Source: a virus. Taken from it: a DNA stretch of 20,673 nucleotides. Of this stretch, positions 2,236 to 17,734 are shown piece after piece. The position numbers were made by a program, and so were the translations under genes. The notes below the pieces were generated by a model that worked only from the letters and a program-made list of their open reading frames with translations, had not been told where the DNA came from and made no database searches. The DNA lies in the IMG/VR virus record IMGVR_UViG_3300031862_000770, positions 1 through 20,673 of that record; one strand, given 5' to 3'. Each line of letters opens with the position of its first letter. The stretch's first letter is position 1.

Positions 2236-3167
2236 ATGAGCATGACTCGCGACGCATTCACGTGGGTTGACACCGGAGCCATAGCATATCCATCGCTGCA
2301 CAAGAAAATCGTCGAGTTAACCATGCCCTCACTCGTTGTGAAACGGCTGTTTCCAGAGTTTCCGTTGGTAGCTGGCAAAACGGCTACATTCGTGAAGCAG
2401 AGCGGTTCAAGAAGCGCCGTGATAAGCGAGACAAGTGAAGGCGCAGAACTCATGATGGACTTCACACCGTACACAACGGTGACCGCTACACCGTACAAAA
2501 AAGGCTTAAGAGAACGCATAAGCCGCGAAAACATTGAAGACCTCTACATCCCAGTCATTGAAGATCAACTGCGTAGGCTTGCCCGGCGAATGGCTTTCAC
2601 CATTGACAAAGACTGCATGAACGTCATAGACGCTGCTGCAGGCTACTCAAGCGCAGGCACGGGCAAAAGCCTCGGCGCAACAGGCACAGAGTTCACCATT
2701 ACAGGAGGTTTAGGCACTAAGGATATTCTTGCAGCGGAGGCCTACATTGCAAGCATGAACTTCGTTGCGGACTCGCTGCTGGTTAACCCCATAAACGCGC
2801 GAGACCTAAAGTACCTGCCCCAATTTTCACTTGCTGCGCAGTACGGCGAAGCTGTCATTCAAACAGGGGCAGTGGGCAAAGTGTACGGGTTAGACCTGTA
2901 CACAAGCACCGTTGTCCCCGCAGGCACAGCCTACGTCATAAGCACTGGACAAAACCTGTCAGCATCATACGCTCCAAAGCCGCAAACAAATGAGAAAGTC
3001 GTTTGCGACGGAGACTGGGGTTCTTCATAATTAAAAGACCTCTGATGACTGACATGGAAATCAAAAAGGAGTTCGACAGCGTAGACGTAATGTTGACGAC
3101 ACGGTACGCGCCTGTAGTGCTGAATGGAGAATGCATCGCCAAAGTTACTAACCTAGCATCAACTTAA
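2236..3167 (+). CDS. HK97-fold major capsid protein, frame interrupted near C-terminus
   Basis: This is the major capsid protein of an HK97-type head. The first frame, 2236-3030 (264 residues), starts after AAGGTGAT. It has the expected order: N-terminal helix; the E-loop region around KTATFVKQSGSRSAVISE; the spine-helix region around EDQLRRLARRMAFTIDKDC; and the A-domain part NFVADSLLVNPINARDLK. It stops right after a Trp-Gly. The -1 frame from base 3021 continues with 48 codons (FFIIKRPLMTDMEIKKEF, then TTRYAPVVLNGECIAKVTNL), which matches the conserved C-terminus of such proteins, and ends at TAA 3165-3167. The joined product would be 310 residues, a normal length. The break is either programmed frameshifting, a real mutation or a lost base in the assembly. 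Confidence 0.85.
3018..3024 (+). other. -1 frame break in capsid gene
   Basis: The sequence around the break is GACTGGGGTTCTTC. The zero frame reads Trp-Gly-Ser-Ser-stop, while the -1 frame from 3021 gives Phe-Phe-Ile-Ile-Lys-Arg-Pro, the conserved continuation. G-GGT-TCT is not a good tandem slippery heptamer, because only the P-site codon can re-pair. One extra G in the run of four would restore the frame. Confidence 0.6.
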
Positions 3168-3801: not shown

Positions 3802-3910
3802 ATTATCACACGTGTGATAAAGTTTACCCGGGTAAACAAAAGCTGAAACTTACGGAGAAATCAAGTTTGGATGACGCAATAGCCGTAACGCCCAGTGTGG
3901 AGAGTGGTTA
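3798..3910 (+). CDS. Very small ORF overlapping the adaptor stop (37 aa)
   Basis: An ATGA overlap places this ATG on the stop of the adaptor gene, as in translational coupling. The first ~15 codons run through two perfect palindromes and read NYHTCDKVYPGKQK; the rest reads KLKLTEKSSLDDAIAVTPSVESG. The stop TAA at 3908 lies where the next ORF (-1 frame) becomes readable, so these two may be one broken gene of about 104 residues. The overlap supports translation; the palindromes argue that the 5' part is not ordinary coding sequence. Function unknown. Confidence 0.3.
3803..3820. repeat. Perfect palindrome, CACGTG type, copy 1
   Basis: TTATCACACGTGTGATAA is an 18-base perfect palindrome with no spacer. 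The inner 16 bases recur exactly at 6181-6196. A gapless palindrome is a better dimeric protein-binding site than a hairpin. Confidence 0.9.
3822..3837. repeat. Perfect palindrome, CCCGGG type, copy 1
   Basis: GTTTACCCGGGTAAAC is a 16-base perfect palindrome, one base after the CACGTG-type palindrome. Related copies lie at 6204-6221, 6218-6237 and 15215-15230. Confidence 0.9.
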
Positions 3911-5711: not shown

Positions 5712-5743
5712 TCACGAAAGAGAGCCCATAGGGCTCTCCGTGA
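5712..5743 (+). promoter_or_regulatory. Strong stem-loop between neck operon and tail-tube gene
   Basis: TCACG (5712-5716) pairs with CGTGA (5739-5743), and GAGAGCCC (5720-5727) pairs with GGGCTCTC (5731-5738), around an ATA loop with an AAA bulge. That is 13 base pairs starting right after a stop codon. It has no following T tract, so it is more likely an mRNA processing or stability element for the abundant tail-tube message than a terminator. Confidence 0.75.
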
Positions 5744-5776
5744 ATGCAACAAAACTTTGAGAGGTGAAAGCAAGAT

Positions 5777-6169
5777 ATGAGTGCTACTCCGTTGATTGGT
5801 CGTAACGCCGTGATTCAGATGGGCACAACCACGATAGGCTTCGCCACTGGTTTCACATGCAACATAGGCGTTGACTTGATTAAAGAGTTTGCTTTAGGCA
5901 GTGACAAGGCGCAGGTTCTTAGCGGTGGAAACAAAAGCTTCAAGGTGAGCTGTGACAAGATGTACATTGACAATACGTATGCAAGTCAGGTTCTAGGCGG
6001 CACACCTGTAGACTTCGTAATTGGTCCTGCAGGCTCGAGTACGGGCAAACCGAAAATCACCATTAAAAGCGTGGTGTTGACGGTTTGGGATTTCAAGGCG
6101 GACCAGAAGGGCATCGTCAGCGAGAAGGTAAGCGGCGAAGGAAACGACTTCATAGTCGGAACATTCTAA
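5777..6169 (+). CDS. Major tail tube protein (130 aa)
   Basis: AGGTGA lies 9 bases before the ATG. The 130 residues are nearly all beta strand, with short glycine turns: PLIGRNAVIQMGTTTIGFAT, then a loop KEFALGSDKAQVLSGGNKSF, then alternating strands ending in EKVSGEGNDFIVGTF. This small all-beta layout, placed just before the tail-assembly chaperone and tape measure genes, is that of a siphovirus tail-tube protein. Subunits stack as hexamers around the tape measure. A strong stem-loop upstream and palindromes downstream bracket this gene, which suggests it is expressed differently from its neighbours. Confidence 0.75.
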   Translation: MSATPLIGRNAVIQMGTTTIGFATGFTCNIGVDLIKEFALGSDKAQVLSGGNKSFKVSCDKMYIDNTYASQVLGGTPVDFVIGPAGSSTGKPKITIKSVVLTVWDFKADQKGIVSEKVSGEGNDFIVGTF

Positions 6170-6180
6170 ATTCCCCCCTT

Positions 6181-6196
6181 TATCACACGTGTGATA
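6181..6196. repeat. Perfect palindrome, CACGTG type, copy 2
   Basis: TATCACACGTGTGATA is identical to the inner 16 bases of the palindrome at 3803-3820. It lies 11 bases after the tail-tube stop codon, in non-coding sequence. Confidence 0.9.
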
Positions 6197-6203
6197 TTTT
6201 CGG

Positions 6204-6221
6204 AGTTCACCCGGGTGAACT
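6204..6221. repeat. Perfect palindrome, CCCGGG type, copy 2
   Basis: AGTTCACCCGGGTGAACT is an 18-base perfect palindrome. Its inner 16 bases recur exactly at 15215-15230. It overlaps the next palindrome by 4 bases. Confidence 0.9.
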
Positions 6222-6237
6222 TTACCCGGGTAAAGTT
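6218..6237. repeat. Perfect palindrome, CCCGGG type, copy 3
   Basis: AACTTTACCCGGGTAAAGTT is a 20-base perfect palindrome whose core TTTACCCGGGTAAA is shared with 3822-3837. It ends 16 bases before the tail-chaperone ATG, over or next to its ribosome-site region. Confidence 0.9.
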
Positions 6238-6791: not shown

Positions 6792-9689
6792 ATGAGCGAA
6801 GTTGAAATACACCTAGTCGCCTATGACGAGGCAAGCGAAAAAATAGAGAGCGTAGGTAACACTGTAAGCGCAACGTTCACGGACATTGAAGGCAAAACGC
6901 AAAGCCTCACAACAGTGACGGATGAATCAACAGGGCAAATCACTGCTAGCTACGGTAAAGTTGCAGATGCAGGCCAGAACCTTGAGAAGCAACAAGCCAA
7001 AACCACGATGGGCTTCAGCGACTCTGCACTCGCAGCGAACAATTTGGCGTTGTCTGGCGCAACATTATTCATGAGTTTTGAACGTGTAGAAAAGGCTGAA
7101 GTGGCAGTTGACAGGGCAAACTTGAATGTTCAGCGTAGCACTGAAGCTGTAGATCAGGCCCAGAAAGCGTACAACGCGGCAGTTGCTAAGTACGGCGAGA
7201 ACAGCGCTCAGGCCAAAGACGCTGCAGACAAACTTGCCATCGCACAGGAAGCTCATAACGTTGCTTTGGAACGTGCTGGCATGGCTTCGCAAAACCTTAA
7301 CCAAGCAATGATATTCAGCGCGCTCACCGTGATTCCAAGCTTAATCTCGATAATCACAAGTGTTTCGCACATCACGGAAATTTGGCAGGGAGTACAAGCT
7401 GGGCTTAACGCAGTTATGAATGCTAACCCAATCTTTCTAGTAATCACGGCTGTCAGCCTGCTTGTCGTCGGCATAATCACCGCTTACAACGCTTGCGAAC
7501 CTTTCCGCAACGCCATAAACGCGATTGGAAAAGCTCTCGGTGACTTCTTCAAGCCCGCCATAGACGCGGTTAAGGGCGCGTTAGAGTGGCTTTGGAACAA
7601 CATTCTGGTTCCGCTCGGCAGCTTCCTCAGCGCAATGCTTACATACGACATTAAAGTCGTCGGTGACGCTTTCAACTGGCTGGCAGGCGTTCTCAAACCA
7701 GTTACGGATGCTCTCGGCGCAGTTGCTAACGCTGTCGGCGGAGCGTGGAACGCAGCTGTAGGAGCTATTGGAGGAGCCGTTAGCGCTATAGGTGGCTTTT
7801 TTGGAAACGTTGCTGACGCGTCAAACAACCTTTCCAAGGGCGTAACTGCTGATACTGGGGAGATGGTTGTCGGGCTGGAGAAGGTCGGAGACTCGCTTGG
7901 ACCCTTCAGCGGCGCTTTTGACGCTATGAAAAATGTGGTTTTAGGCTTCACTGGAGAAACGAAAGAATACTACGAGGCTTGGCGTGACGAGCAGGTCAAG
8001 CTGGTTGACGAGAACCTTTCGAAACAGTTGGACATAATCAACAAAAAGTATGATGAGCAGCTGAAGACGGTTGACGATTCACTGTCGAAACAGGTTGAGG
8101 AAATAAACAAGAAATATGACGACATGACTAAAACCGTCAACGATGCTTTCGACAAGGAATACGCGGAGTTCATCAAGCATTACGCCGAACTTCTTGAACC
8201 GCCAGTAAGCGCGCTTGACAAACTCCTGGAAAAGTATAACAGTTATTTTGACAAGCAAATCGCGGATCTCACGAGGCATTATGATGAGGAAACAAAAAGC
8301 ACAACATCACATTATGACGGCTTGATAAGTGATGTTGAGAGGAGCCTGAACGAGCAGAAAAGATTCATTGAAGCAGACTACAGCGAGATGCTCAGAACCG
8401 TCCAGCAGGAATACGCCGACGAAATCGCCGCAACACGAGCTCACTATGACGATATGATTGGAGCTGTGAACGCTGGGCTGAAACAGATTCAGAACGCTAG
8501 GAAAGGCGATTTGGACGCTTTAGAGCTTAACATGTTGCTGGAGAAAGAGAAGCTTAAGGCAGCGCTTGCAGCCAATGAGATAACTCAAGACGAATATCAG
8601 AAGAAAGTTTCAGAGCTCGAAAAAACCTACAACGCGCAACGTGCTGAGACTAATGATGCGTATCGGCTGAAGGAGCTTGAATATCAAAAAGCGCATGCCG
8701 GCGAAGTCGAAGCGCTAGAGAAGGAGAAAGGCGAGAAACTAAAAGAACTCGCAAACAAAGAGAAAGATGCAGTTACAGACATTAATGCGGAGAAGAACGA
8801 GAAGCTTCTAGGCGCTGAAACTGCAGCGAACGCTAAGATTGCTGCACTTAACCAAGAGAAAACAGACAAACTGAAAGCAATCGCTGACCAAGAAAAAGAC
8901 GCACTCACAAAGATTGAGGAAGAGAAAAACACGAAGATTAAGGAGATTCAAGACAGAGCTGCAGCGTTAGAAAAAGAACACGCTGACAACATTGCAGCAA
9001 TCGAGAAATCTAAGAATGAAGAGATTAACGCTGTCACAACCGCTGCGGAAAACGCTAAAGCGGCCCTCATCGCAAGCAGGGAAGGCGAAATTAAAAACAC
9101 GATTCAAGCAGCCGAGCTTGAAAAGCAACGCATCATCAGCGAGTCAGGAGAGAAACTTGAAGCTTCAAATCAAAACGTTTGGAGCAGCATAGGAGGCGCA
9201 ATTTCAAATGCGTGCGCATCTGCCTCCACAACGTTGCAAAGTTGGGCTAAAAGCGTTGCGGACGCGATGAGCGGCGCGTGGGACGCTATAAGCAAATTTA
9301 TCGGAAGCATCTGCTTCGCGCATGCCCTTGCAAACGCTGCTGATTCAAGCCAGAAAACCATGGCTGGCTGGGTTGGCATGGTTCAAGACAGCATGGAGGC
9401 GGGTTTAGGCAGCATTAAAGCGTTTAACAGGCAAGCTGAACTTTCAGGCGCCGTCGCCTCGGCTGGCGCTGGAGCCGCGCCTGTCCCGTCTGCTGCATTG
9501 GCTGGGGCGAGAGCGCCAGTAACAGTTAACATCACGGCGCCCCTCGTGAACGTTGAAGGCAGCGCGGACAGGGCGACGGTGGATTTGGCTTCAAAGCAGG
9601 TTTTGGAAACTTTGAAAACGGTTATAGTTGAGCCTACAAGCGCTTCTGCCGTTCAAAAGAGAATTAGAAAGGGAGCAGTGTTCGCATAA
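6792..9689 (+). CDS. Tape measure protein (965 aa)
   Basis: This is the longest gene in the window and lies just after the tail chaperone. Residues 1-170 are Ala/Lys-rich helices. Two hydrophobic segments follow (~173-195 and ~211-232), typical of tape measures that enter the host membrane. A glycine/alanine-rich amphipathic part covers ~300-345. Residues ~400-790 form a long coiled coil with internal repeats: NLSKQLDIINKKYDEQLK against SLSKQVEEINKKYDDMTK, and EKGEKLKELANKEKDAV against EKTDKLKAIADQEKDAL. At the usual ~0.15 nm per residue, the tail would be roughly 145 nm. The protein sets tail length and is ejected ahead of the DNA. The start ATG is 6 bases after the chaperone fusion stop. 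Confidence 0.9.
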   Translation: MSEVEIHLVAYDEASEKIESVGNTVSATFTDIEGKTQSLTTVTDESTGQITASYGKVADAGQNLEKQQAKTTMGFSDSALAANNLALSGATLFMSFERVEKAEVAVDRANLNVQRSTEAVDQAQKAYNAAVAKYGENSAQAKDAADKLAIAQEAHNVALERAGMASQNLNQAMIFSALTVIPSLISIITSVSHITEIWQGVQAGLNAVMNANPIFLVITAVSLLVVGIITAYNACEPFRNAINAIGKALGDFFKPAIDAVKGALEWLWNNILVPLGSFLSAMLTYDIKVVGDAFNWLAGVLKPVTDALGAVANAVGGAWNAAVGAIGGAVSAIGGFFGNVADASNNLSKGVTADTGEMVVGLEKVGDSLGPFSGAFDAMKNVVLGFTGETKEYYEAWRDEQVKLVDENLSKQLDIINKKYDEQLKTVDDSLSKQVEEINKKYDDMTKTVNDAFDKEYAEFIKHYAELLEPPVSALDKLLEKYNSYFDKQIADLTRHYDEETKSTTSHYDGLISDVERSLNEQKRFIEADYSEMLRTVQQEYADEIAATRAHYDDMIGAVNAGLKQIQNARKGDLDALELNMLLEKEKLKAALAANEITQDEYQKKVSELEKTYNAQRAETNDAYRLKELEYQKAHAGEVEALEKEKGEKLKELANKEKDAVTDINAEKNEKLLGAETAANAKIAALNQEKTDKLKAIADQEKDALTKIEEEKNTKIKEIQDRAAALEKEHADNIAAIEKSKNEEINAVTTAAENAKAALIASREGEIKNTIQAAELEKQRIISESGEKLEASNQNVWSSIGGAISNACASASTTLQSWAKSVADAMSGAWDAISKFIGSICFAHALANAADSSQKTMAGWVGMVQDSMEAGLGSIKAFNRQAELSGAVASAGAGAAPVPSAALAGARAPVTVNITAPLVNVEGSADRATVDLASKQVLETLKTVIVEPTSASAVQKRIRKGAVFA

Positions 9690-11402: not shown

Positions 11403-11618
11403 GTGAGTGTTTGGGGCGGCGAAGCAATACATGATGCAGTGTTAAGCCAGTTGACGAGCGCTCCAACAGGCAAGAAAGTCTCGAAGTTCAGTTTCTCTTG
11501 GAATGGGGATGGAACGGTTTCTACGATCAGGGCTTATGACAGTGGTGGAACGTTACTTTTCACCCTATCCTTTTCATGGAACGGGGACGGCACGCTCAAA
11601 GAAGTTTCACGGTCATGA
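11403..11618 (+). CDS. Small protein with duplicated SWNGDGT motif, GTG start (71 aa)
   Basis: The start is GTG, three bases after the previous stop. The C-terminal half holds two copies of F-S-W-N-G-D-G-T (FSFSWNGDGTVSTIRAYD and LSFSWNGDGTLKEVSRS) separated by ~22 residues. Similar 'Y/W-N-x-D-G-T-L' strand repeats occur, from memory, in phage tail and fibre proteins, where each unit forms a beta hairpin. The length suggests a small tail-tip accessory protein. The next gene's strong ribosome site lies 15-20 bases after its stop. Confidence 0.55.
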   Translation: MSVWGGEAIHDAVLSQLTSAPTGKKVSKFSFSWNGDGTVSTIRAYDSGGTLLFTLSFSWNGDGTLKEVSRS

Positions 11619-11646
11619 TTTTCATGACGTAGAAAAGGTGAAAAAT

Positions 11647-12207
11647 ATGGAAAAAGCGTTTGGAAAAGACTGTATAGATGTTGGTGCATCGATTCCCATG
11701 AAGGATGTGGTCATGTACAAGACAAGGTGGACTATCGAAAAATTCAAGGGAAACTTCAGAAGCCGAGAAGAAGCGGTTAAAGCCAAAGCTGAATTGATTG
11801 AGAAGCTTGAGGTTGACGGCAACCTGCTGCTGAACGAAGGCATAAACAGCATCTGGACGCTCGTGTGCAGCGGCGCAACAGCAACCGTTCTAGTATTCAA
11901 CAACGCGAACAGCTATATAGGCGTCGGAGACAGCGCAACCGCCGCCGCTGCCACTGACACGGGCTTGCTGGGAACGAATAAGCTTTACAAGGCGATGGAC
12001 GCGGGCTACCCGACTTTCGGTTCAAACCAGCAGGTGGTGTTTCGCAGCACTTTCGGCAGTGCAGACGCGAACTTTGCTTGGAACGAGATCACCGTTGCTG
12101 ACGGCAACAGCGACTCAAGCATGAACCTGAACCGTAAAGTCCAAGCAATGGGCACAAAAGCCAGCGCCACCACGTGGGTCGTTACGTTAACCATAACGCT
12201 GTCTTAA
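11647..12207 (+). CDS. Virion protein with NSIWTLVCSG...YIGVGDS domain (186 aa)
   Basis: An open frame extends back to 11503, but the ATG at 11647 is chosen because AAGGTGA lies 5 bases before it and the upstream part overlaps the previous gene. Residues 1-50 are charged and partly helical. From ~60 on comes a conserved-looking beta domain: NEGINSIWTLVCSGATATVL, then NSYIGVGDSATAAAATDTGL, YKAMDAGYPTFGSNQQVVF, and a closing KASATTWVVTLTITLS strand. I recall this pattern in structural proteins of many tailed phages, often beside fibre genes. It is probably exposed on the virion. Confidence 0.65.
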   Translation: MEKAFGKDCIDVGASIPMKDVVMYKTRWTIEKFKGNFRSREEAVKAKAELIEKLEVDGNLLLNEGINSIWTLVCSGATATVLVFNNANSYIGVGDSATAAAATDTGLLGTNKLYKAMDAGYPTFGSNQQVVFRSTFGSADANFAWNEITVADGNSDSSMNLNRKVQAMGTKASATTWVVTLTITLS

Positions 12208-14530: not shown

Positions 14531-14944
14531 GTGGGTGTTACAGGTTTGAAGCGGAAGGTTCTTGGTGAACTAGGAAAACTAAGCCTAGGCGATCTTGTTC
14601 GTGTTGAATGGCAGGATGCTTCAATCGGCAAAAGCTTGGGCACTGGTGTGGCTGTTGACGTGAACGTCTGCAGCTGGGGCATTTTCATAGGATTCATGGG
14701 CGAGAGAGGCAAGCACATAGTGTTGGCGCAAAACAACTTTCACTATGCTGACGGCCTCTACGACATTGATTACACGGCAATCCCAGTTTCATGGATGATG
14801 AGCGTTGACGTAATAGCAAAAAACCACATCAAAACGAGCGATGCCAAGGAGCTTCTGAACAGCTTTCTCACGGGTGGAAGACGAACACTGCCAAAGCGCA
14901 AGCGTCAGCAGAGGATAGTTAACCATTATGGCAGACTGGATTAA
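14531..14944 (+). CDS. Unknown beta protein before the holin-like gene (about 137 aa)
   Basis: The frame is open from before 14411, inside the fibre gene. A GTG at 14531 is chosen as the start because it is the first start codon after the fibre stop; a TTG at 14546 is the alternative. KLSLGDLVRVEWQDASIG and SWGIFIGFMGERGKHIVLAQ suggest a small SH3-like barrel, followed by a helix and a basic tail with LPKRKRQQR. The end overlaps the next gene by 17 bases. Function unknown; the basic end could bind nucleic acid or phospholipid. Confidence 0.5.
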   Translation: MGVTGLKRKVLGELGKLSLGDLVRVEWQDASIGKSLGTGVAVDVNVCSWGIFIGFMGERGKHIVLAQNNFHYADGLYDIDYTAIPVSWMMSVDVIAKNHIKTSDAKELLNSFLTGGRRTLPKRKRQQRIVNHYGRLD

Positions 14945-15185
14945 ACGGGCTTTGACAAGGACGGTGCAGCGCAAGGGTTCCAGGGGAAAACAGCAAATTA
15001 TTATTGTGCAGCCCAGCTTCAAGCTTGTTTTGCTTGTCAAGTTCACAATAGCAATGGCTGCTTGTCTTTCAGGTTTGGAGGTTGCTTACTTAGCTTTTTT
15101 GGGCAGGTGGAACAGTGAAGTTTTCGCTGCAATAACCGGGCTTATCGGCACGGTTACAGGCGTTTTAATCGGACACCACGCGTAA
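14928..15185 (+). CDS. Holin-like small membrane protein (85 aa)
   Basis: A short basic N-terminus (ADWIKRALTRTVQRKGSRGK) is followed by two hydrophobic segments, ~31-57 (LVLLVKFTIAMAACLSG onward) and ~65-83 (AAITGLIGTVTGVLIG). Size, two membrane helices and position at the end of the tail gene cluster are those of a holin, the protein that permeabilises the host membrane at lysis. No lysin gene is recognisable nearby, and archaeal virus lysis is poorly known, so this remains a likeness. It overlaps the previous gene and is the last gene before a structured spacer. Confidence 0.5.
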   Translation: MADWIKRALTRTVQRKGSRGKQQIIIVQPSFKLVLLVKFTIAMAACLSGLEVAYLAFLGRWNSEVFAAITGLIGTVTGVLIGHHA

Positions 15186-15214
15186 AACTCGGTTTTTCCC
15201 TTCAGAGCTTCAAA

Positions 15215-15230
15215 GTTCACCCGGGTGAAC
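15215..15230. repeat. Perfect palindrome, CCCGGG type, copy 4
   Basis: GTTCACCCGGGTGAAC is identical to the inner 16 bases of 6204-6221. It lies 30 bases after the holin-like gene and three bases before the structured RNA candidate. Confidence 0.9.
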
Positions 15231-15232
15231 CC

Positions 15233-15358
15233 CTAGACTGAAAAGAGCTCGGGGGGCCCGTTTCAGAAAGTTCAGGAGAGCCCATGTTAAGCTTCAGAAC
15301 GCTCGTAGTATGGGCTGCTGGCTGAACCGTGTTTTTCTGAGGCGTTTTCAGATTCTAG
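15233..15358 (+). ncRNA. Candidate structured RNA with three-way junction
   Basis: The closing stem pairs CTAGACTGAAAA (15233-15244) with TTTTCAGATTCTAG (15345-15358), 12 base pairs with a two-base AT bulge. Inside are a short hairpin CGGG-GGG-CCCG (15250-15260) and a long interrupted stem: TCAGAAA/TTTCTGA (15263-15269 with 15334-15340), GTTCAG/CTGAAC (15270-15275 with 15322-15327) and AGCCCAT/ATGGGCT (15279-15285 with 15310-15316). TTTCAG at 15261-15266 could instead pair with CTGAAA at 15238-15243, giving an alternative fold as in switches. It lies 69 bases before the next ATG. Pairing is seen by eye; transcription and function are inferred. It could be a leader, attenuator or independent RNA. 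Confidence 0.5.
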
Positions 15359-15426
15359 TTTCAAAGCTCACTCACAAGCGGGGTGGGCGAAACCATGAAA
15401 AACTTGGGAGGAGGTGAAAGGTAAAA

Positions 15427-16125
15427 ATGAATAATACAGAAAAGTTGGTTTTGGGCTTTGCAATCTTCGTGATTCTAACAGGAGTGTTTTTAGCGATTAG
15501 CCAATACGCCAAAACAATTGATGCGTCGACTATGCCTGCGTTCCTTCAAGGCATAGTAAAGGCGGTTCAAAACTTCTTCGCATATTCTGCCGTAGTCTTT
15601 GCGGTGGCCTATTTACGCAACATATTAGGCTACTTCAGAAATTGGGTTACGCTGCATAAGACGGAAGCCGTTGACTATGACTTAAACAGGTATTATAACA
15701 CGCTGCTATATTACGTTGGACCGTTCAACATTGCTTTATCTGCGCTGCCCTCGCCTTACAACGCCTTCGGCGCAGCCTTAGCGTTCATCGTGGATGTTTT
15801 CACGGCAGAATTCAAGAAGATTCAAACGATAAAACCAACTGAGCCGGCTCCTCCTTATCCGCCACCGATTCCCGCAACAGTACTATTCAAAGAGAAGGTA
15901 ACCGTCTCCGATGTGTTTGTTGACGGAAAAGCTTTTCCAAAATCGCTGTCGACAACAGGAACTCAGATCGGGACATATCAAGTGGCTACGGACGAAACAA
16001 AAGAATGGAAGACAAGCGTTACGATAGCTTTTGCCGACTATAATCCGCATCAGGTTCAGATGAAAGCTAACGAAACCGTGATTTGGTCTGGAAGTTTACA
16101 GTACGGACAAATAATGTACGCATAA
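15427..16125 (+). CDS. Membrane protein with proline-rich linker and C-terminal beta domain (232 aa)
   Basis: A very strong GGGAGGAGGTGA site lies 9 bases before the ATG, which suggests high translation. Two or three hydrophobic segments occur (about 7-26, ~48-68, and a weaker ~118-135). A proline-rich linker (PAPPYPPPIPATV, ~155-167) leads to a beta-rich domain of ~65 residues ending in WSGSLQYGQIMYA. The order suggests a membrane anchor with an exposed beta domain. It stands alone between the structured spacer and a T-rich tract. No family is recognised; candidates are a lysis-related or cell-surface protein. Confidence 0.65.
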   Translation: MNNTEKLVLGFAIFVILTGVFLAISQYAKTIDASTMPAFLQGIVKAVQNFFAYSAVVFAVAYLRNILGYFRNWVTLHKTEAVDYDLNRYYNTLLYYVGPFNIALSALPSPYNAFGAALAFIVDVFTAEFKKIQTIKPTEPAPPYPPPIPATVLFKEKVTVSDVFVDGKAFPKSLSTTGTQIGTYQVATDETKEWKTSVTIAFADYNPHQVQMKANETVIWSGSLQYGQIMYA

Positions 16126-16184: not shown

Positions 16185-16262
16185 ATGAGCAATGGAAAAG
16201 TGAAGTTGAAGAGGCTGCGGGAAAAGTTGAAGCGGAAGCAGGTTGAGGGCGTGACACGTTGA
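16185..16262 (+). CDS. Very small basic peptide coupled to the ABC-GNAT gene (25 aa)
   Basis: The ATG frame encodes 25 residues, with a run like GKVKLKRLREKLKRKQVEG in which more than a third are Lys or Arg. Its TGA overlaps the TTG start of the ABC-GNAT gene (TTGA at 16259-16262). No clear ribosome site is seen. The overlap suggests translational coupling, and the charge suggests nucleic-acid contact, but a leader ORF with no useful product is equally possible. Confidence 0.4.
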   Translation: MSNGKVKLKRLREKLKRKQVEGVTR

Positions 16263-17734
16263 CAAGGCGAAGAGAATATTTCCGCATCCGCCAGTTCCGC
16301 AGAGTCTACGATAGAAGCCGGAACAGGTTCACCTTCAACATTGCGTACGAAACCGCTACCAAGCTGACGCCTAGAAGCGTGGCGGTTGCTGAAGCCTTCG
16401 GCCTTGGCCTTGACGAGCAGAAGCGCTTCGTGATTTATGACAATGTTGAGTTGAAAATAAGCCCTAACGACATCGTGCTGATCACCGGCGATTCAGGATC
16501 AGGCAAAAGCGTGCTACTACGAGCATTACTAGCTGACCTTGGCTCTGAAGCTATAGACATGAAAAACCTCGAAATCTGCAGCAATAAACCGCTAATCGAG
16601 ACTGTTGGAAAGACGGTTGAAGAGGGCATTGAGATTTTAAGCCGCGTTGGCTTGAATGACGCTTTTCTGTTCCTGCGCACTTACGAGCAGCTTTCGGACG
16701 GACAGAAGTACCGTTACCGCATCGCCAAAATGGTTGAGAGCAGGAAGCAGTGGTGGATCGCTGACGAGTTCTGCGCTACCCTGGATCGTGATACGGCGAA
16801 GATTGTGGCGTTTAACGTGCAGAAGCTTGCAAGAACCTTGGGAAAAGCTGTGGTTGTAGCTACGACTCACACGGACCTGTTTGAGGATTTGCGGCCGAGC
16901 CTACACGTTCACAAGAGGTTCGGCAAGGAAATATCCATCAAATATTATCCGAATGAGCCAGCCAGAGAATGCAGCCTCGTCAAGGAAATGCGTGTTGAAG
17001 AGGGTACACTGCAGGATTGGAAAGAGCTCGCCGGCTTTCATTACCGCAGTCACAGGGTAGTTGCGCCACGCAAAATCTATTGTCTTAAGCGGGGAACCGA
17101 GGTGTGCGGAGTGATCGTTTATTGTTATCCGCCTCCCAGCGCCTACGGTCGAAGAATGGTTCTGCCCAAAATGACGATGCGAGAACTGAACGAGAAACTA
17201 ACCATTATCAACCGTGTTGTGGTTCACCCGAAATATCGGAGCATAGGACTCGGAGCGAAACTTGTTCAGGACACCCTACCCTTAATCGGCACGCCTTATG
17301 TAGAGATGGTTGCGGTTATGGCCAAGTACAACCCTTTTGCAGAGAAGGCGGGAATGAAGAAGGTGGCTGAGCAGGAGCCTCAGAGGGAGATTTTACGGGT
17401 TTCCAGAGTTCTTCAAGAGGTCGGGTTTAATGTTCAGCTGCTTGGAAGCGGGAACTATGTTCTGCAGAAACTTCAAGCACTCAACGCCGATGGCCTGGAA
17501 AGGGTTAGGGAGGCCTTCGTCAAAGCCGACCATCCGCGCTTCTCAAAGTTTTTCAGCTCAGGCCTTCCATTCGGGCATACGGGGGATTACGAGAAGAAGG
17601 TGAATGCTGCAAGCTTGGAGCAGCTTGCAGGACTTGTCAAGATCTGCGGCTTCCTGATGCAGACGAAGGCTTACCTTTTCTGGAAGTTTTATCCATTAAA
17701 TCCCTCAGCAACGTGTGCGCAAGATTTGCTTTAA
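16259..17734 (+). CDS. ABC-type ATPase fused to GNAT acyltransferase, COG2401-like (491 aa)
   Basis: Residues ~55-215 are an ABC ATPase: Walker A GDSGSGKS (77-84), signature LSDGQ (145-149), Walker B WWIADE with catalytic Glu170, D-loop-like TLDRD, and His204 in TTHTD. No membrane segment is present, so it is not a transporter. Residues ~250-370 are a GNAT domain: FHYRSH (260-265), GVIVYCYPPP, then NRVVVHPKYRSIGLGAKLV with the RxxGxG acetyl-CoA loop (327-332), and NPFAEKAGMKKV. The C-terminal ~120 residues are unassigned. This architecture matches, from memory, COG2401, common in archaea and tailed viruses. The HY-loop and GV[IV] pattern recall Mom-type DNA-modifying GNAT enzymes. The substrate is unknown; DNA or tRNA modification is a guess. 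Confidence 0.85.
   Translation: MTRRREYFRIRQFRRVYDRSRNRFTFNIAYETATKLTPRSVAVAEAFGLGLDEQKRFVIYDNVELKISPNDIVLITGDSGSGKSVLLRALLADLGSEAIDMKNLEICSNKPLIETVGKTVEEGIEILSRVGLNDAFLFLRTYEQLSDGQKYRYRIAKMVESRKQWWIADEFCATLDRDTAKIVAFNVQKLARTLGKAVVVATTHTDLFEDLRPSLHVHKRFGKEISIKYYPNEPARECSLVKEMRVEEGTLQDWKELAGFHYRSHRVVAPRKIYCLKRGTEVCGVIVYCYPPPSAYGRRMVLPKMTMRELNEKLTIINRVVVHPKYRSIGLGAKLVQDTLPLIGTPYVEMVAVMAKYNPFAEKAGMKKVAEQEPQREILRVSRVLQEVGFNVQLLGSGNYVLQKLQALNADGLERVREAFVKADHPRFSKFFSSGLPFGHTGDYEKKVNAASLEQLAGLVKICGFLMQTKAYLFWKFYPLNPSATCAQDLL

Follow-up and report, generated by a model that had tools for sequence, protein, structure and literature searches.

Bulged hairpins by a ribosome site are known as the coat-protein operators of the RNA phages MS2, PP7, and Q-beta. 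In phage T7, intercistronic hairpins are processed by RNase III. Cis-acting structured RNAs of archaeal viruses seem to be little studied. In Archaea, the bulge-helix-bulge motif has been described for introns, for example in the Cbf5 pre-mRNA (PMC2738675), and candidate structured RNA motifs have been obtained by comparative genomics (PMC2864571).

In the present study, we analysed a 20.7-kb IMG/VR virus record (the window), together with related sequences, all of which are metagenomic. We found a 36-nt hairpin, very probably a control element in viral mRNA, that recurs ahead of the same small set of virion genes; across some 40 related virus sequences, its shape is kept and its letters are not. 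Like the MS2, PP7, and Q-beta operators, it is short, is interrupted by a bulge, has conserved letters in bulge and loop, and lies beside the ribosome site of a viral cistron in a putatively polycistronic RNA. Those operators, however, belong to RNA genomes, their bulge is a single A, and their upper stem is shorter than the 8 bp seen here. The present hairpin, with a 3-nt bulge and a loop of 7-9 nt, is one of tailed DNA viruses, and a genome often has two copies. The likeness to a coat-protein-type translational operator, at which a bound protein represses the cistron that follows, concerns geometry and position only and is suggestive. The T7 hairpins are likewise repeated between cistrons just ahead of ribosome sites, but they are processed, and an archaeal counterpart would need a different enzyme. 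The candidate motifs from comparative genomics (PMC2864571) are similar in being defined by covariation upstream of genes, with their function open. No Rfam 15 family matches the hairpin: cmscan of the whole window gave no matches, and a permissive scan of 15186-15430 gave only a sub-threshold CRISPR-repeat match at 15214-15245. We found no description of this hairpin in the open-access literature. As the hairpin is repeated within genomes, covaries strongly, and precedes likely virion-component genes, its partner and effect are directly testable with a 36-nt RNA. It offers a way to study how late genes, which probably share one transcript, are balanced in tailed viruses of uncultivated archaeal lineages or viruses not yet grown in culture.

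We take the window to be from an archaeal tailed virus (genes in Table 1). The capsid protein had no match in the annotated phage collection, and its relative in the related contig L003 is a PHROG major head protein. Among the matches listed for the large terminase of a relative, the top score was that of the archaeal Halogranum tailed virus 1 (29% identity). A search for a host or provirus, in which species genome contigs were scanned with a strict pattern and with the capsid protein, gave no matches. The membrane-protein gene downstream of the hairpin has no match in Pfam or PHROG. The name "tail-tube" is based on position and general resemblance, and that gene has no PHROG match.

Table 1. 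Features of the window discussed in the text
Feature	Position	Strand	Remarks
Conserved hairpin	15358..15393	+	58 model matches, 25 distinct
Lower stem of conserved hairpin	15358-15362/15389-15393		5 bp
Bulge of conserved hairpin	15363-15365		AAA, 3 nt
Upper stem of conserved hairpin	15366-15373/15381-15388		8 bp
Loop of conserved hairpin	15374-15380		ACAAGCG
Shine-Dalgarno sequence (SD) of membrane-protein gene	15406..15417	+	GGGAGGAGGTGA; from sequence
Downstream gene, presumed target of hairpin	15427..16125	+	232 aa; N-terminal half hydrophobic (membrane protein)
Second copy of the architecture	5712..5743	+	TCACG-AAA-GAGAGCCC-ATA-GGGCTCTC-CGTGA; 5/3/8 bp, different loop
SD of tail-tube gene	5761-5767		GAGGTGA
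Homologue of tail-tube-type genes (SD follows hairpin in relatives)	5777..6169	+	from protein alignment and scan
Capsid protein, HK97-type	2236-3030		Pfam Phage_capsid_4
Tape measure protein gene	6792-9689
Three-way junction proposed earlier	15233..15358	+	not conserved as such; no part of the conserved element
Perfect DNA palindrome GTTCACCCGGGTGAAC	15215..15230	+	separate repeated element, not in L087 spacer
Palindrome sites	3822-3837, 6205-6220, 6220-6235, 15215-15230; also 3803-3819, 6180-6196

The relative L004, whose matching spacer follows the capsid gene, has only the end of the window spacer in common with it. All pairs are kept between the window copy (GUUUC-AAA-GCUCACUC-ACAAGCG-GGGUGGGC-GAAAC) and the L004 copy (GUCUC-AAA-GCUCACUC-ACAUGCG-GAGUGGGC-GGGAC). 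A first alignment of 12 distinct sequences kept all 13 pairs, 10 of them through double changes. A covariance model finds 58 copies in related tailed viruses, 25 of them distinct; some of these loci overlap on one contig, and about 40 contigs are represented in all, with L087 and L098-L100. In the 25 distinct rows, all 320 pair cells hold standard pairs and none is broken, and 95 of the 320 are changed on both sides, with double changes in 10 of the 13 pairs; several of the rows are close relatives, so that not all changes are independent events. The covariation score was 0.835; shuffles gave 0.231, and sliding gave no more than 0.198. The compensatory base changes that mark a conserved structured RNA are therefore present, and we regard the structure as firmly established through covariation. 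The geometry is fixed across copies: 5 bp, a 3-nt bulge A-N-A/U, 8 bp, and a loop AC-A/G-N(1-3)-GCG (observed as ACAAGCG, ACAUGCG, ACAUUGCG, ACAAAGCG, ACAGGCG, ACAAGGCG, ACGUCUGCG, and ACGUCUGUG). The bulge and loop letters are conserved, and the stem letters vary freely. G-U pairs occur in the stems and non-standard pairs never do, which points to an RNA rather than a DNA site.

Copies were collected in several ways. A stem-relaxed pattern search gave ten further viral contigs with the hairpin, and L030, L143, and L182 were added by inspecting the regions downstream of capsid genes. A structural scan revealed further copies ahead of the tail-tube gene, which form a second set: their bulge and loop are the same, but the letters of their stems are quite different. 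Since part of the set had been found with patterns that fix the bulge and loop letters, the tail-tube loci were gathered again by protein similarity alone, yielding 43 loci with 37 distinct 150-nt upstream regions. The strict hairpin (5 bp / 3 nt / 8 bp) was present in 25 of these 37 regions, as compared with a mean of 0.03 in dinucleotide shuffles and 1 of 164 stretches further upstream. All 25 bulges are of the form A-N-A/U (13 AAA, 6 AGA, 3 AUU, 2 AAU, and 1 ACU). L260, L262, and L263 have an AAA-bulged hairpin with another loop or an upper stem of differing length. At the tail-tube gene of other related viruses (L261, L264-L271, and L005), the hairpin is absent. Several matches were discarded: the 48 matches of the first viral-contig pattern, leaving aside the own family, resemble bacterial terminators or chance; the match in L092 belongs to a bacterial-type phage, at its gene for a DnaB-like helicase; and that in L016 covers the SD region only. 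Model matches of 24.6 bits or less were treated as chance where the locus had been retrieved with a pattern that itself fixes part of the hairpin.

The copies lie on the coding strand, 1-29 nt ahead of an SD, and many genomes have the hairpin at two places. Copies of class (i) follow the capsid gene by 38-106 nt and precede, by 4-29 nt, the SD of a small membrane-protein or signal-peptide gene; these downstream genes are of several seemingly unrelated types. Copies of class (ii) lie 1-18 nt before the tail-tube SD, and for many of these viruses the gene ahead of the copy ends in a stop codon that extends into the bulge (CUUGUAAAG or CUUGUAGAG). When the window was scanned for the bare architecture, exactly two hairpins were obtained, at the two positions in Table 1, both with an AAA bulge and on the coding strand (expectation in shuffles, 0.025, for A-N-A/U bulges on both strands). 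The copy before the tail-tube gene begins directly behind the stop codon of the upstream gene. That at 15358 is separated from the capsid gene by 12 kb, yet the SD core GAGGTGA of the membrane-protein gene starts 17 nt past its end. The comparison shows the hairpin itself, its conservation, strand, and site before SDs, and also that this site ahead of a membrane-protein gene is retained far from the capsid gene. The element thus goes with the downstream cistron, not with the 3' end of the capsid message.

The fixed position of the bulge, the conserved bulge and loop letters, the covarying stems, and the site before late-gene SDs together suggest that a protein recognises the hairpin and that the downstream cistron is controlled. 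A recognition site would be expected to keep its bulge and loop letters while its stems change freely, as is seen here. We consider it somewhat better than an even chance that the hairpin is a cis-acting element of the downstream cistron in late mRNA, most simply the site of an RNA-binding protein that would set its translation. The hairpin would sit in a polycistronic late viral mRNA just upstream of a strong SD, where a viral or host RNA-binding protein would recognise it, and binding would set the translation of the tail-tube gene or the small membrane-protein gene within the transcript. Binding of a protein is probable, and the controlled step is presumably translation, not mRNA stability. 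Some observations argue against this explanation: the spacing to the SD is loose for a steric block, the hairpin is missing at the tail-tube gene of some related viruses, and in context folds of some sequences it competes with other pairings (in the window, 0.47 for the lower and 0.69 for the upper stem). In addition, the second window copy has the loop AUA, so that recognition of the loop cannot hold for every copy.

The main rival is processing or stabilisation of the downstream message. According to this possible but doubtful explanation, the hairpin acts at the 5' end of the downstream message, as a mark or as protection against a 5'-3' exonuclease, once the long late transcript has been cleaved; the tail-tube and membrane-protein messages would then outlast the rest, and a dedicated translational regulator would be unneeded. 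The variable spacing to the SD fits this explanation, although mere protection needs no conserved bulge or loop letters. U-rich tracts are the kind of site where archaeal transcripts end or are cut, and after the capsid gene such a tract directly precedes the hairpin in most relatives; the tail-tube copies, however, lack the tract and lie in or beside coding sequence. An intrinsic terminator would be a G+C-rich hairpin followed by a U run, whereas here an SD follows the hairpin and any U-rich tract lies upstream.

Translational control through a protein also has to be set against an RNA switch (riboswitch or thermometer), where the SD would compete with the hairpin for the 5' strand of the upper stem. 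In the window and L004 this strand, CUCACUC, is indeed able to pair with the SD region, but other copies have a different strand (GCCAGCCC, GGGCCAUC, or GAGCCUCA). As judged by inspection, complementarity to the SD is not conserved, the hairpin is, and we consider such a switch very improbable. A phi29-like packaging RNA would be a free RNA that docks on the portal and is required for packaging; the occurrence of the hairpin at two sites in a genome, both linked to an SD, argues against it. For the same reason, the packaging signal or free viral ncRNA suggested in the first-pass annotation finds no support.

The capsid genes of these viruses contain insertions of their own. In the window, L009, L018, L005, L010, L101, and L095, insertions of 24-38 nt interrupt the capsid reading frame, and four different sites are affected. 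The window frame stops early, after 264 codons. The 38 nt at 2978-3015 have a bulge-helix-bulge motif (CUCC-AAA ... GGAG-ACU) at their borders; without them, the gene (2236-3167) again reads ...SASYAPMGFFIIKRPLM... and encodes 297 aa, as many as intact homologues. Likewise, removal of a 31-nt insertion near codon 28 (L018 and L005) or of a 24-nt insertion near codon 202 (L101 and L095) gives 297 aa; L010 has a 32-nt insertion near codon 84 and a second break further on. Each insertion is bounded by the archaeal bulge-helix-bulge motif, and excision restores the homologous sequence, at exactly 297 aa except in L010. These insertions are candidate introns spliced by the tRNA-splicing endonuclease EndA. 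The archaeal mRNA intron case that we found in the literature is Cbf5 (PMC2738675), and we found no report in the open-access literature of such introns in a viral capsid gene; they are possibly of more interest than the hairpin itself.

As the same viruses appear to contain EndA-type introns, it is of interest whether the hairpin is itself a processing site of the host EndA at its 3-nt bulge, that is, a one-bulge derivative of the bulge-helix-bulge that would cut late polycistronic mRNA before chosen cistrons. The 3' bulges of the introns (ACU, AGA, AAA, and AAU) are all found among the hairpin bulges (AAA, AGA, AAU, AUU, and ACU), and the hairpin shares with the archaeal motif (PMC2738675) a 3-nt A-rich bulge between helices. 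The canonical motif, however, requires a 3-nt bulge on each of its two strands, with 4 bp between them, and the hairpin has one bulge, lacks this spacing, and has a lower stem of at least 5 bp that in many copies is continuous with flanking A-U pairs. Cleavage on the canonical rules is unlikely, and we hold the derived site to be improbable as well. If it were true, viruses with apparent EndA-spliced capsid introns would also cut their late mRNA by a derived EndA substrate.

The first-pass annotation had placed a candidate new structured RNA with a three-way junction at 15205-15369, before the membrane-protein gene. A candidate new structured RNA is present there, as the covariation and the lack of an Rfam match indicate, but it is the single bulged hairpin, which those coordinates split in two. 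The proposed outer pairing of GAGCTT with AAGCTC is contradicted, as AAGCTC (15364-15369) is part of the conserved hairpin. The letters do allow 15233-15244 to pair with 15345-15358, and they contain the GCTC/GGGC hairpin as well as the long stem with its interruptions; TTTCAG (15261-15266) does have two possible partners, and the neighbourhood is as described, with a small holin-like gene upstream and a strong ribosome site downstream. Against shuffles, the fold was modestly unusual for 15205-15369 (-57.8 kcal/mol, z -2.09, 5 of 200 shuffles equally good) and moderately better for 15233-15358 (-46.1, z -2.4, 5 of 500).

The sole known homologue of the junction spacer is in L087; none was found in any other relative. 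It is 89% identical although the flanking genes have diverged, and it precedes another gene (78 aa, as compared with 232 aa in the window). L087 leaves 38 of the 49 pairs of the window junction fold unchanged and retains 5 more through base changes; the 6 that it breaks include 4 of the 12 closing-stem pairs, and L087's own best fold lacks this stem. Homologous spacers that are alike in sequence but lose the pairs were what the first-pass annotation had named as refuting its fold, and on this comparison the junction is rejected as a conserved structure, as far as two sequences can tell. That it functions as a switch, attenuator, or packaging RNA, which its z score and the identity with L087 might favour, is extremely improbable. 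The consensus fold of the two sequences consists of two separate hairpins, a small one (CUGAA/UUUCAG, the alternative pairing noted earlier) and then a long one; two hairpins, at 15238-15266 and 15270-15325, are more likely for this region, with the reservation that two sequences cannot prove either fold. The two-state switch proposed earlier loses its basis, as its alternative pairing sits in sequence known from one other virus only.

In the comparison of 14928-15426 of the window with L087, the spacer is similar, whereas the C-terminal half of the upstream gene and the entire downstream gene differ; a recombination boundary around a conserved leader is likely. The GTTCACCCGGGTGAAC hairpin was rejected as part of the conserved RNA, as it is missing from the L087 spacer and recurs in other window spacers. 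Loop-less palindromes of the forms GTT(C/T)ACCCGGGT(G/A)AAC and TTATCACACGTGTGATAA are repeated in intergenic spacers, and the former also occurs about 20 times in a 113-kb contig (IMGVR_UViG_3300045051_000987). These palindromes look like operators of a dimeric DNA-binding regulator. Elsewhere in the window, the frames at 11403-11618 and 11503-12207 overlap and carry repeated SFSWNGDGT-like coding sequence, and the relative L009 also aligns here in two overlapping pieces; a frame break or internal duplication is possible. The gene at 16259-17734 encodes an ABC-type ATPase domain followed by a GNAT acetyltransferase domain, and its product is about 37-41% identical to proteins from large bacterial phages, several of which are annotated as ABC transporters.
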